A DNA stretch of 64,000 nucleotides from positions 434,001 to 498,000 of the forward strand of contig NZ_CP036250.1 in the NCBI RefSeq assembly GCF_004300825.1. Direction: 5' to 3'. The stretch comes from Egicoccus halophilus. GTDB taxonomy: Bacteria > Actinomycetota > Nitriliruptoria > Nitriliruptorales > Nitriliruptoraceae. Within the stretch, counting starts at the first letter, position 1. The number at the start of each line of letters is the position of its first letter. The notes under the pieces are model-generated. The model was not told where the DNA came from. It was given only the letters and a program-made list of their open reading frames with translations, and ran no database searches. Both the position numbers and the translations under genes were made by a program. Of this stretch, positions 18,858 through 23,257 are shown piece after piece.

Positions 18858-18879
18858 ACGGGTCGCGTCCGCGACCCGT
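18858..18879 (+). terminator. Hairpin between the DUF2090-like gene and dodecin
   Basis: ACGGGTCGCG and its exact complement separated by 2 bases, 15 bases after the stop codon. U-poor, so strength is uncertain. Confidence 0.5.
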
Positions 18880-18931
18880 GAGGCGACGTGACCCTGCAGT
18901 CGGGCACGACGGAGCGAGGAGCGTTTCCGAG

Positions 18932-19135
18932 ATGGCGGTCATCAAGACGATCGATCTGGTCGGCGTGTCCACCGAGTCCTGGCGCGACGCGGCGCACAAG
19001 GCGCTCGACGAGGCCACCAAGACCCTGCGCAACGTGGAGGGCTTCAACGTGCTCGACACGTCCGCCGTGGTCGAGGACGGCGCGATCAGCGAGTACCACA
19101 CCCACGTCCGCATCAAGTTCCGCATCAGCCGCTGA
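18932..19135 (+). CDS. Dodecin family flavin-binding protein
   Basis: 67 residues, the typical dodecin length. Signatures: IKTIDLVGVSTESWRDAAHK, LDEATKTLRNVEGFNV, AISEYHTHVRIKFRI. Dodecins form hollow dodecamers that store or sequester riboflavin/FMN and CoA in the cytosol; the tryptophan in ESW is the one that stacks on the flavin. ATG with a GCGAGGAG site about 10 bases upstream; upstream codons in the same frame belong to shadow. Divergence of function from flavin storage cannot be judged. Confidence 0.93.
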   Translation: MAVIKTIDLVGVSTESWRDAAHKALDEATKTLRNVEGFNVLDTSAVVEDGAISEYHTHVRIKFRISR

Positions 19136-19196: not shown

Positions 19197-20102
19197 TCAG
19201 ACCACGTCGTCGCGCGCCCGCAGCGCCGTCTCGAGGCTGGCGGGCAGGTCGACGATCGAACCCCGGTGCACCACGGCGTTGGGCAGCCCCGTCACGTCGG
19301 CGGCCACGAAGCCGGTGCCCCCGAGCACGATTCCCGCACCCGGGAAGGACGGGCGGTCGGCCAGGAACGCCTCCGCCCGCTCCCGGAACACCGCCCCGAC
19401 CAGCACGACGTCGGGGACGAGTTGCTCCGCCCCCCGCTCCATCGCGGCCGTGGGCGTGCGCGCGCCGAGGTAGTGCACCTGCCAGCCGGCGTCGGCGGCG
19501 GCCGCCGCGGCGGCCAGCAACCCGAGGTCGTGCTCCTCGGCCTCCGGGGCCGCCGCCAGCAGACTGCGGCCGGCGCCCCGGGCCGACGACCGCAGCAGTC
19601 GCTGCAGCCGGGGGCGCAACGTGTTGGTCGCGAAGTGCTCCCGCGCGATGACCCGCGGGTCGTCCTGCCACCCCTCGCCCACGCGGCGCAGCACCGGCAG
19701 GAACACCTCGTCGAGGGCGCGCGGCACCTCGAAGCGCGCGAAGACGTCGTCGACCACCGCGTCGGCGGCCAGGGCGTCGAAGCGGTCGATGGCGGCCTCG
19801 AGGCGCTCCACCAGCGACAGCGCCGCCGACCCGAAGCCGGGGACCGGTCGCAGCGGGGTGACGGTGGCGGGCTCGCGCAGGACCTCACGGGCCGCGGCGG
19901 CCGCCGACCAACCCTCGACGAGCAGCCGCTGCATGGCACGCACACGGTCGACGTCGGTGTCGCGGTAGAGCCGGTGGCCGCCCTCCGTGCGCTCGGGGGC
20001 CAGCAGTCCGTACCGACGCTCCCACGCGCGCAGCGTGGGCACGGCGACGCCGGTGCGGCGGGACACCTCACCGATGCGCAGCACGGCACGAACGTCGGGC
20101 AC
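19197..20102 (-). CDS. CarH-like MerR regulator with B12-binding light-sensor domain
   Basis: 301 residues. N-terminal MerR HTH (LRIGEVSRRTGVAVPTLRAWERRYGLL). The C-terminal cobalamin-binding domain carries the photoreceptor signature W145-x9-E155-H156 (WQDDPRVIAREH), which caps adenosylcobalamin in CarH. It also carries the ExHxxG motif at E189-H191-G194, whose His becomes the lower ligand after photolysis. With these residues it should bind AdoCbl in the dark as a repressor and release DNA in light, as CarH does (known); this is inferred for the present protein. Start GTG 20102; GTG 20084 is an alternative. Divergent from a ProA-like gene with 102 bases between, which probably contains its operator. 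Confidence 0.88.
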   Translation of the reverse strand: MPDVRAVLRIGEVSRRTGVAVPTLRAWERRYGLLAPERTEGGHRLYRDTDVDRVRAMQRLLVEGWSAAAAAREVLREPATVTPLRPVPGFGSAALSLVERLEAAIDRFDALAADAVVDDVFARFEVPRALDEVFLPVLRRVGEGWQDDPRVIAREHFATNTLRPRLQRLLRSSARGAGRSLLAAAPEAEEHDLGLLAAAAAAADAGWQVHYLGARTPTAAMERGAEQLVPDVVLVGAVFRERAEAFLADRPSFPGAGIVLGGTGFVAADVTGLPNAVVHRGSIVDLPASLETALRARDDVV

Positions 20103-20191
20103 GAGACAACAGGTCCTGCGAGTCGACAACCGGTTCGGTCGAGGTTCGTCCCCGACCGGCGAGGTGGACGGGCGGAAGAGCGGGGTCAGGC

Positions 20192-20197
20192 TACGGT
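20192..20197 (+). promoter_or_regulatory. -10 box TACGGT for the ProA-like gene
   Basis: TACGGT ends 7 bases before ATG 20205 with no ribosome site, pointing to a leaderless mRNA. The region between this box and the CarH-like gene has direct repeats (GACAAC near 20105 and 20125; GGTTCG twice, 11 bases apart, near 20130-20147) that could be operator half-sites. Confidence 0.5.
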
Positions 20198-20204
20198 GCC
20201 CGCC

Positions 20205-21710
20205 ATGGACGTCCAACCACTCTCCACGCTCACGCCCGGTCAACCGCTGGTCTTCGGCGGCGACCGTGTCACCGTCGTCCCCGAAGCGCTCGCCGAGGCG
20301 TTCGTGCCCGGTGACGCCCTGGTGGTGCTGCAGGACACCGGCGAGGTGCTGCACGTACCGGCCGGGGACCGCGCGGCGGCCGCCGCCGCGGTCGACGCGG
20401 CCGCGGCGGCCTTCGGCGCCATGGGCGACGTCGACGACAGCGCGGTCGACGCCTTCTACCGGTCGTTCGCCGATCACCTGGCCGACGACGAGCGCTACGC
20501 GCCGATCGCGGCCGCCAACGCCGCCGACGTGGCCGCCGCCCGCGAGCGGGGGCGCTCCACGACCCGGCTGGTGCTGACCGACCGGATGCGGGCCGACATG
20601 ATCGCCGGTCTGCGCGCCTGGACCGACGTGCCGGGCACGCGGGGTCGCGTCCTCGAGACCTCCGAGCACGACGGGTGGACCCTCGAGCAGGTCAGCGACC
20701 GGCTCGGCGTGGTCGCGTTCGTGTTCGAGGGCCGTCCCAACGTCTTCGCCGACGCCTGCGGCGTGCTGCGGGGCGGCAACACGGTGGTGTTCCGCATCGG
20801 GTCGGACGCGCTGCGCACCGCCCGCGCCATCGTCGAGCACGCGCTGGACCCGGCGTTGACGGCCGCGGGCCTGCCGCCGGGAGCCGCCGCGCTGGTCGAT
20901 GCGCCCTCGCACGCGGCCGGGTGGGCGCTGTTCGGTGACCCACGGCTCGCGCTCGCCGTGGCGCGCGGATCGGGCGAGGCCGTGCGGCAGCTGTCGGCCG
21001 TGGCCCAGCAGGCCGGCAACGACGTCTCGGCCCACGGCACCGGTGGGGCCTGGATGGTCGCCACCGCAGCCGCCGATGCCGACCGCTTCACCGCGGCGGT
21101 ACGGGCCTCGCTGGACCGCAAGGTCTGCAACACCCTCAACGTCTGCTGCGTCGTGCGCGAGCGCGCCGACGAACTGGTGCCGGCGTTCCTCGCCGCGCTC
21201 GACGCCGCCGCCGAGGCGCGCGGGACCGCGGCCAAGCTGCACGTGCTGCCCACCGCCCGCGCGCACGTGCCGGCCGAGCGGTTCTCCACCGTCGTGCCGA
21301 TCGCCCGCGCCGGCGGGGAGGTCGACGAGCCGCAGGCCGAGCTGCTCGACGAGGACCGGCTCGGCGACGAGTGGGAGTGGGAGGACAGTCCCGAGGTGAC
21401 CCTCGCCGTCGTGGACGACCTCGACGACGCGCTGCGGCTGTTCAACGCCCACAGTCCCCGGTTCGTGCTCTCGGTGCTCTCCGAGGATCCGGCCGACCTC
21501 GAGCGGGCCTGGCAGCTCGCCGAGGCGCCCTACCTCGGCACGGGCTTCACCCGCTGGGTGGACGGGCAGTACGCGCTGGGGACCCCGGAGCTCGGCCTGT
21601 CCAACTGGGAGCGCGGCCGCCTGTTCGGTCGCAGCGGGATCCTGTCCGGGGCGGCGATCGCCACCGTGCGGACCCGGGTCGTGCAGCACGACCCGGACGT
21701 GCACCGCTAG
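20205..21710 (+). CDS. Gamma-glutamyl phosphate reductase (ProA)-like aldehyde dehydrogenase
   Basis: 501 residues of the ALDH superfamily, closest in motif to ProA: FVFEGRPNVFADACGVLRGGN (ProA has ESRPNV..DAA..GN), catalytic C308 in KVCNTLN (ProA VCNA), a DEWEWED segment matching the ProA EDWDTEY region, and RWVDGQYALGTPELGLSN near the end. It is longer than true ProA (about 415) with an extra N-terminal domain of about 85 residues. Canonical proB is absent, and its neighbours are a CarH-like regulator and an MFS exporter, so a role other than proline synthesis is plausible. The MFS gene starts directly after its stop. Confidence 0.8.
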   Translation: MDVQPLSTLTPGQPLVFGGDRVTVVPEALAEAFVPGDALVVLQDTGEVLHVPAGDRAAAAAAVDAAAAAFGAMGDVDDSAVDAFYRSFADHLADDERYAPIAAANAADVAAARERGRSTTRLVLTDRMRADMIAGLRAWTDVPGTRGRVLETSEHDGWTLEQVSDRLGVVAFVFEGRPNVFADACGVLRGGNTVVFRIGSDALRTARAIVEHALDPALTAAGLPPGAAALVDAPSHAAGWALFGDPRLALAVARGSGEAVRQLSAVAQQAGNDVSAHGTGGAWMVATAAADADRFTAAVRASLDRKVCNTLNVCCVVRERADELVPAFLAALDAAAEARGTAAKLHVLPTARAHVPAERFSTVVPIARAGGEVDEPQAELLDEDRLGDEWEWEDSPEVTLAVVDDLDDALRLFNAHSPRFVLSVLSEDPADLERAWQLAEAPYLGTGFTRWVDGQYALGTPELGLSNWERGRLFGRSGILSGAAIATVRTRVVQHDPDVHR

Positions 21711-22985
21711 GTGGACGACGACCGTCGCCGGACCCGGGCGCGCCAGCTCGGCTGGTTGGCTGGCACGGCCGTCTTCGTCACGGCCCTGAACCTGCGGCCC
21801 GCCGCCAGCAGCTTCGGCGCGTTGCTGCCGGCCCTGCGCCAGGACATCGGCATGCCCTCGGCGTTGGCCGGCGTCGTGACGAGCCTGCCACCGGTCTGCT
21901 TCGGGGTGTTCGGGCTGCTGGTCGGCCGGTGGGCGAGGCGGCGTGACACGGCCCTGGTGCTGGTCGCGGCGATGCTGGTGACCTCGGTCAGCCTGCTCGC
22001 CCGGGTGCTGGTGGACGACCCGCTGCTGGTGCTGTGGTGGACCGTCCCGGCGCTGGGCGGCATGGGCGTGGGCAACGTGCTGCTGCCGGTGGCGGTGAAG
22101 CGGTGGTTCCCGCGCCACGTCGGTCGGGCCACCGGGCTGTACTCGATGGCGCTGGCGCTGGGCACGGCGGCGGCGGCCGCCGCGTCGGTCCCGGTGGCGG
22201 AGGCGTTCGGGAGTTGGCGGGTGGGGCTGGGCGTGTGGGCGCTGCCGCCGCTGTTCGCCGTACCGGTGTGGCTGCTGGCCCGGCGTCGCAGTGCGGACGA
22301 CGCGCCGGGTGGTCGGGTCCCCTCGCGCGCGGGGTCCGCCGGCGCCGCCGCGGTCGATGCCCCGGACGATCCGGTGCGCGACGAGGGTGCCGGGGCACGG
22401 TGGTCGCCGGCCGCCGCCCGGGTCCACCGGCATCCGCGGGCCTGGGCGCTGGCCGGCTACTTCGGCCTGCAGAGCCTCGCGGCCTACGTGGTGATGGGCT
22501 GGCTGCCGTCGATCTACCAGGACGCCGGCGTCGACCCGACCACGGCAGGGCTGCTGCTCGCGTGGGTGATGGTCCTCGGCGCACCGGTGAGCGTGGTGAT
22601 GCCCGAACTCGCCGCCCGCCGCGAGGACCAGCGCGTCTTCGTCGTCGGTCTGAGCCTGTTGGCCCTTGCCGCCCTGGTCGGTCTGCTGCTGGTGCCGACG
22701 GTGCTGCCGGCGCTGTGGGCGACCCTGCTCGGCATCGGCATGGGCGCCTTCCCCCTGGCACTGGTGCTGATCGGGCTGCGGGCGCGCTCGGCGGAGGGCA
22801 CGGCGCGACTGTCGGCACTCAGCCAGGGTGTGGGCTACCTCATCGCGGCCGGCGGTCCGTTCGCGATCGGCCTGCTGCACGACGCGACCGGATCGTGGAC
22901 GCCACCGTTGCTGGTGCTGATCGGCCTGCAGCTCCCGCAGCTGCTGCTCGGCCTCGTCGTCGCCCGCCCCGGCACCGTCGACTGA
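21711..22985 (+). CDS. MFS transporter, CynX/NimT-like
   Basis: 424 residues with 12 hydrophobic segments and the cytoplasmic loop between TM6 and TM7 (about 190-235). The N-terminal signature LNLRPAASSFGALLPALRQDIG (read in two halves) is characteristic of the CynX/NimT branch (cyanate, 2-nitroimidazole and related transport). GTG start abuts the TAG stop of the ProA-like gene, so the two are one transcript. Substrate unknown; export of a small organic acid or amide related to the dehydrogenase is a guess. Its last codons form the first unit of a tandem repeat that continues past the stop. Confidence 0.85.
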   Translation: MDDDRRRTRARQLGWLAGTAVFVTALNLRPAASSFGALLPALRQDIGMPSALAGVVTSLPPVCFGVFGLLVGRWARRRDTALVLVAAMLVTSVSLLARVLVDDPLLVLWWTVPALGGMGVGNVLLPVAVKRWFPRHVGRATGLYSMALALGTAAAAAASVPVAEAFGSWRVGLGVWALPPLFAVPVWLLARRRSADDAPGGRVPSRAGSAGAAAVDAPDDPVRDEGAGARWSPAAARVHRHPRAWALAGYFGLQSLAAYVVMGWLPSIYQDAGVDPTTAGLLLAWVMVLGAPVSVVMPELAARREDQRVFVVGLSLLALAALVGLLLVPTVLPALWATLLGIGMGAFPLALVLIGLRARSAEGTARLSALSQGVGYLIAAGGPFAIGLLHDATGSWTPPLLVLIGLQLPQLLLGLVVARPGTVD

Positions 22986-23100
22986 CCCCCGCCGCCCGCC
23001 CTGGCACCGTCGGCCGACCCCCCGCCGCCAGCCCTGGCACCGTCGGCTGACCCCCCGCCGCCAGCCTCGGCACCGTCGGCTGCCCCCGCCGCCCGCCCCG
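22962..23100 (+). repeat. 31-33 bp tandem repeat, four units plus a partial
   Basis: Units at 22962-22993, 22994-23026, 23027-23059 and 23060-23090 share the core GGCACCGTCG and a CCCCCGCC end; a partial fifth unit follows. The first unit encodes the last residues and stop of the MFS gene, so the array grew out of the gene's 3' end. The 358-base stretch 22986-23343 holds this array and the palindromic repeats after it, and no gene. Confidence 0.85.
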
Positions 23101-23257
23101 GCTCGTCCACGCGTGACGTCTTCGCGCGGCCCGGATCCGCATCCGTGGAGTCGTGGAACGAATGGGATGATCCACGGCTCCACGCATGGCGTCTTCGCGC
23201 GGCCCGGATCCGCATCCGTGGAGTCGTGGAGCGAGTGAGCTCTTCCACGGCTCCACG
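23101..23257. repeat. Two tandem palindromic elements of about 73 bp
   Basis: The stretch containing GTCTTCGCGCGGCCCGGATC occurs at 23118 and again at 23191, 73 bases apart. Each unit ends in a hairpin: 14-base arms CGTGGAGTCGTGGA and TCCACGGCTCCACG at 23144-23184 (13-base loop) and 23217-23257 (13-base loop). The loops differ between copies while the stems are identical. It sits between convergent genes, so it can serve as a bidirectional terminator. It resembles REP-type intergenic repeats. Confidence 0.8.

Follow-up and report, generated by a model that had tools for sequence, protein, structure and literature searches.

A CarH-type regulator beside the only ProA-like gene of Egicoccus halophilus: a divergent ProA clade and its possible control by light and B12

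We analysed a stretch of 64 000 nucleotides (the window; positions 434001-498000) of the single-contig, 3.98 Mb genome of Egicoccus halophilus. At 19197..20102, on the reverse strand, lies a carH-like gene whose 301-residue product has a MerR helix-turn-helix, a B12-binding four-helix bundle and a Rossmann B12-binding domain; its start was placed at the GTG at 20102 because almost every orthologue either begins there or has a start codon at that position. Facing it on the forward strand (20205..21710) is a gene for a 501-residue enzyme, the sole ProA-like gene of the genome, with Cys308 in the sequence RKVCNTLN. ProA is glutamate-5-semialdehyde dehydrogenase, which carries out the second step of proline synthesis, and we call this gene for a predicted divergent form of that enzyme proA2. 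A gene for an MFS transporter of the CynX/NimT family (21711..22985, forward strand) begins immediately after the stop codon of proA2; in the locus comparison it adjoined proA2 in many, not all, family members. On the other side, a gene for the flavin-binding protein dodecin (18878..19135, forward strand) is convergent with carH and is a neighbour kept in most of the family. Two features occupy the region between carH and proA2: a conserved motif, GTTCG-N17-GGACGG (20144..20171), which we take as a candidate CarH operator, and the -10 box TACGGT (20192..20197, forward strand) of a predicted leaderless proA2 promoter, which is kept also in relatives without carH. An earlier note had described the divergent partner as a 501-residue ProA-like enzyme with an extra N-terminal domain, followed by an MFS gene. 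The coordinates, the length, the kinship and the MFS gene all stand; the extra "domain" is a small beta module in which no domain is recognised. Beyond the MFS gene, at 22985-23200 of the window, there is a GC-rich repeated stretch (CCGTCGGCTGACCCCCCGCCGCCAGCC...) and then a repeated-looking element, tccgcatccgtggagtcgtggaacgaatgggatgatcc.

The pairing of the two genes recurs across the family. In 23 of the 29 Nitriliruptoraceae genomes bearing proA2, carH lay next to it and in divergent orientation; of the other six, contig ends interrupt the locus in two (G038 and G050), and no carH stands at that place in four (G052, G057, G059 and G060). The five genomes of another family in the class (f4) have proA2 but neither a carH beside it nor a carH orthologue. 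These natural losses provide ready controls. Of the loci drawn from the named collection, a direct tblastn located carH in those of Nitriliruptoraceae and in no others. An apparent carH beside proA2 in Acidimicrobiia was a clustering artefact, in which antisense ORFs had been joined to an over-long ORF of the window, and was contradicted by tblastn. In the f4 genomes (L125-L128), proA2 lies near riboflavin-synthesis genes, with a ribBA-type gene in L127 by Pfam. The carotenoid genes of E. halophilus lie away from the locus: phytoene synthase is at 2087815-2088561 (2.088 Mb) with adjacent carotenoid genes, and neither a CarH gene nor a strict match to the intergenic motif was found near it. The family-wide pairing, the operator-like motif and the position of phytoene synthase together bear out the earlier proposal that a CarH-type regulator here faces a non-carotenoid operon.

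To compare the carH-proA2 intergenic regions, we used an unbiased gapped-word scan of 19 discovery regions against 40 dinucleotide shuffles. The top word pair was GTTCG-N17-GGACGG, present in 11 of the 19 regions, where the shuffles gave a maximum of 3-4 for any pair. A relaxed form of the motif occurred in all 19 regions, 16 with the exact spacing and three with a spacing of 16 (block-shuffle expectation, a mean of 0.09 regions), and in 5/5 held-out carH upstream regions with the exact spacing, although these counts are inflated by the shared ancestry of the genomes. In one of the held-out cases, G050, carH and proA2 are on different contigs. The motif was absent from the 300 bp upstream of 9/9 proA2 genes without carH. 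Because the surrounding intergenic DNA varies widely in length (about 100-460 bp) and otherwise aligns poorly, retention of the motif points to constraint. Its half-sites, nGnnCG, are 22 bp apart, equivalent to two 11-bp units. Known CarH operators are tandem 11-bp TnnACA repeats (PMC9304148); no middle 11-bp repeat was seen in the motif and its half-sites do not match the published repeat. A reading of the motif as an ECF-type promoter was rejected, the boxes being in the wrong order. Genome-wide, the strict motif gave 10-18 matches per genome, roughly as many as base composition predicts, with no clear further regulon. The safest reading of these comparisons is that the motif is a candidate CarH operator which serves carH autoregulation in general.

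Whether CarH would also act on proA2 turns on where the motif lies relative to the proA2 promoter. Only a few bases separate the proA2 -10 box from the ATG, an arrangement seen in leaderless genes. Almost all the regions compared retain the box, most of the carH-less ones among them. In the window's genus (g1) the motif stands 46-47 bp from this box, as it does at two of the three loci measured in genus g2; the third g2 locus has 37 bp. At 46-47 bp it covers part of the predicted promoter's -35 region. In other genera the distance is 57-239 bp, at which a classical block of proA2 by CarH would hardly be expected. As most other genera have this longer spacing, autoregulation of carH is the firmer proposal. 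Direct control of proA2 is likely in the window's genus and perhaps absent elsewhere.

These observations bear on the strongest alternative, that CarH regulates only itself, perhaps with distant genes, while proA2 is constitutive from its leaderless promoter and its adjacency is inherited synteny. We hold this somewhat less likely than not. It would account for a motif whose position is tied to carH and not to the proA2 promoter, at distances to the -10 box from 37 to 239 bp, and for a -10 box kept in most carH-less regions. Moreover, synteny with carH-proA2 extends to dodecin, a PNPOx-family gene and further neighbours, so that the adjacency alone is weak evidence of a regulatory link. Against it, the motif lies over the -35 region in g1 and in most of the g2 loci. 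The g2 genomes also keep the carH-proA2 pair despite having no dodecin neighbour and having purA and purD downstream.

The regulator itself has the composition expected of a CarH protein. MerR_1 (PF13411), B12-binding_2 (PF02607) and B12-binding (PF02310) were all above their Pfam cut-offs, and the best PDB matches were Thermus CarH crystal structures (residues 2-259, E 6e-28). The W-x9-EH and ExHxxG residues to which the earlier note had pointed are indeed present, as W145...E155-H156 and E189-E-H191-D-L-G, and the former, together with the cobalt-ligand histidine, is invariant in 15/15 aligned regulator sequences. W-x9-EH is the feature that separates CarH from CarA, its B12-independent relative (PMC9304148). 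From these residues and the domain architecture, the protein is probably an AdoCbl-binding photoreceptor repressor of the CarH type. It scores 143 bits on the NCBIfam TransRegCarH equivalog model, below the cut-off of 400, and we therefore call it CarH-type without assigning it as a CarH equivalog. By sequence, the genome encodes AdoCbl users (proteins of the methylmalonyl-CoA-mutase and IcmF types) as well as MetH, so AdoCbl should be available to the cell.

It is unlikely, though with some points in its favour, that the regulator has no AdoCbl photochemistry and senses something else, or B12 without light in a CarA-like manner. In the pattern D/ExHxxG/P-x41-SxT/V-x22-27-GG, the regulator fits at E189xH191xxG, x41, x22 and GG, and the serine is glycine (GxV), a change found in all orthologues examined. 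It also has three of the four elements of the SignatureFinder light signature GxxW, EH, GxxH and GxxxP (PMC11796333). The fourth, GxxH, is AxxH in the window's regulator and in one aligned orthologue, with glycine in most others. CarA is a precedent for a relative that does without B12 (PMC9304148). Conversely, W-x9-EH is intact and the histidine ligand, GxxW and GxxxP are kept.

Two further observations concern B12 elsewhere in the genomes. The region at G000:C1:1909115 (L006; L279:5822-6841) encodes a B12-binding-domain protein of 339-354 residues with GxxW, W-x9-EH, GxxH and GxxxP; it has a C-terminal helical domain and no DNA-binding part, and looks like a photocobilin (PMC10979010). Its gene comes directly after what, by eye, is a suf-like cluster. 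There may be two B12 photoreceptors in the genome, one CarH-type and one photocobilin-like. In L003 (G000 near 162000), an in-frame tandem repeat of five copies of AIVAGGAEAKPSTHG lies upstream of or at the metH start, and could be an intergenic repeat that has been read through.

The enzyme scored below both curated ProA models (121 bits against a cut-off of 289, and 96 against 317). With the first of these, NF001221, proA2 itself was nonetheless the best match in the genome and the next reached only 31 bits. The low score is general: ProA2 proteins reach only about 108-164 bits on this canonical family model. They have an N-terminal extension of ~50 residues and an insert of ~30-40 residues, giving ~500 residues against ~418 for canonical ProA. 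An AlphaFold model built from a 36-sequence alignment had a mean pLDDT of 88, and its top 15 PDB fold matches were all gamma-glutamyl phosphate reductases or P5C synthases, with 4jbe first. Cys308 aligns with the catalytic cysteine of ProA and was invariant in 36/36 sequences. In a quick tree, in which the root is unsure and the 4jbe row partial, a very long branch separated the ProA2 clade from canonical ProA. ProA2, a name given in this analysis, is most likely a deeply divergent ProA clade.

The distribution of the two forms within the class is complementary. Among 66 genomes, ProA2 was present in 34, canonical ProA above cut-off in 25, and both in none; all 33 near-complete genomes (≥90% complete, ≤5% contaminated) had some ProA-type gene and all 33 had proB. 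Relatives with canonical ProA carry the block rplU-rpmA-obgE-proB-proA, which in E. halophilus and its ProA2 relatives ends at proB. The genome of E. halophilus has proB, and proC at 3975402-3976187. Neither a canonical proA nor ornithine cyclodeaminase was found in it, and a check for another proA accompanying proB, as the earlier note had advised, returned proB and no other proA. With this complementary distribution, its genomic position and its structure, ProA2 is very probably the cell's glutamate-5-semialdehyde dehydrogenase, in place of canonical ProA. The enzyme thus fills the missing proA step and, most likely, belongs to core metabolism; the undescribed metabolite pathway suggested in the earlier note is not supported by the same comparative evidence.

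ProA2 was also found in Acidimicrobiia, Armatimonadota, Phenylobacterium and the Pseudomonas fluorescens group. In Phenylobacterium the enzyme (X) sits exactly between proB and nadD in the block rplU-rpmA-x-obgE-proB-X-nadD, the named genes of which carry the Pfam domains L21, L27, GTP1_OBG, AA_kinase+PUA and CTP_transf_like. In Phenylobacterium sp. Root1290 (L181, 2132-8175), for example, ProA2 replaces canonical proA in place, whereas the control genome, Caulobacter vibrioides, has canonical ProA. The Phenylobacterium and Acidimicrobiia genomes tested yielded no second ProA, while the four Pseudomonas genomes and the single armatimonad in the test had canonical ProA as well as ProA2. When 216 genomes were drawn from across the phylum, a further candidate set emerged, such as families f11 and f27, whose only ProA-type match falls in the same low score band. 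In several Pseudomonas fluorescens-group loci (e.g. L209), the extra ProA2 gene adjoins a glutaminase gene. No plasmid copy was found in PLSDB. In the same quick tree, with its unsure root, the Phenylobacterium and Pseudomonas sequences nest among actinobacterial and armatimonadotal ones, a pattern that fits lateral spread. ProA2 may have replaced canonical ProA repeatedly. The clade accounts for a proA step that seems to be missing from many actinobacterial, armatimonadotal and Phenylobacterium genomes.

That the enzyme is instead a semialdehyde dehydrogenase of another pathway, with proline made without ProA, might be argued from scores far under the ProA cut-offs, the very long branch and the canonical ProA carried beside it in the Pseudomonas genomes checked, yet is highly improbable given the mutual exclusion with canonical ProA in the class, the retention of proB and proC where ornithine cyclodeaminase was not found, the in-place substitution in Phenylobacterium, the conserved catalytic residues and the adjoining glutaminase gene in several Pseudomonas loci.

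We return to the reading that we prefer, in which a CarH repressor at the intergenic site controls both its own gene and the proA2-MFS operon, with ProA2 as the enzyme; taken whole, we consider it evenly poised. In the dark and with AdoCbl, CarH would bind GTTCG-N17-GGACGG between the genes and repress its own gene. Since this site and the -35 region of the predicted leaderless promoter of proA2 overlap in the window's genus, bound CarH would there also lower transcription of proA2-MFS. Light, or a shortage of B12, would release CarH and proline synthesis would rise. Here we infer the binding, the repression and the light response, while the identity of the enzyme and the association of the motif with carH emerge from genome comparison. 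Proline synthesis controlled by light or B12 is plausible. The fullest version, that a B12 photoreceptor repressor directly sets transcription of the cell's only ProA, so that light and AdoCbl gate proline synthesis across the family, perhaps for proline as a compatible solute or photoprotectant, and that ProA2 is a second clade, not separated until now, repeatedly replacing canonical ProA, is one we think somewhat less likely than not. Many of the relatives are soda-lake sediment assemblies ("CSSed" isolate names; PMC6146748), which makes proline as a compatible solute, tied to light, a reasonable guess, albeit an unsupported one.

The interest of the locus now lies in a divergent clade of ProA taking the place of the canonical enzyme, and in a probable B12 light switch beside the cell's only ProA. 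Should CarH control proA2, core amino acid synthesis would have one of its steps under a B12 photoreceptor. In the literature searched we found no description of CarH-type control of proline synthesis, and no joint mention of CarH with Nitriliruptor or with glutamate-5-semialdehyde dehydrogenase.

Compared with canonical ProA (NF001221, TIGR00407), ProA2 shares the fold, the aligned catalytic VCN cysteine and the E-x-RPNV motif; it fills the proA slot after proB in Phenylobacterium and has a complementary distribution in the class. It differs in its greater length, from the N-terminal extension and the insert, and in forming a separate clade on a long branch. The closest solved structure is the gamma-glutamyl phosphate reductase of Saccharomonospora viridis (PDB 4jbe; E 6.9e-48 by profile and 3.6e-30 by fold), which has SLDR-x-VCN-LN in common with ProA2. 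At 445 residues and 28% identity, however, it still lies well away from ProA2 in the tree, and it is without the N-terminal extension, its alignment to the ProA2 profile starting only at about residue 53.

With CarH and the class I LitR proteins of Thermus thermophilus, Bacillus megaterium and Myxococcus xanthus, the regulator shares the MerR helix-turn-helix, four-helix-bundle and Rossmann B12 domains, the W-x9-EH, cobalt-ligand histidine, GxxW and GxxxP residues, and a putative binding site conserved upstream of its own gene. Unlike those systems, whose targets are carotenoids or photolyase, the candidate target here is proline synthesis; the half-sites are nGnnCG, 22 bp apart, in place of tandem TnnACA 11-bp repeats; and SxV and GxxH have become GxV and AxxH. 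The class II LitR proteins of Pseudomonas (PmlR/PplR) are CarH relatives with non-carotenoid targets, photolyase and folE among them (PMC9758184), so that such targets are not new as a general idea. They differ in that they are thought not to bind B12, work with a LOV protein, and act on targets other than amino acid synthesis.
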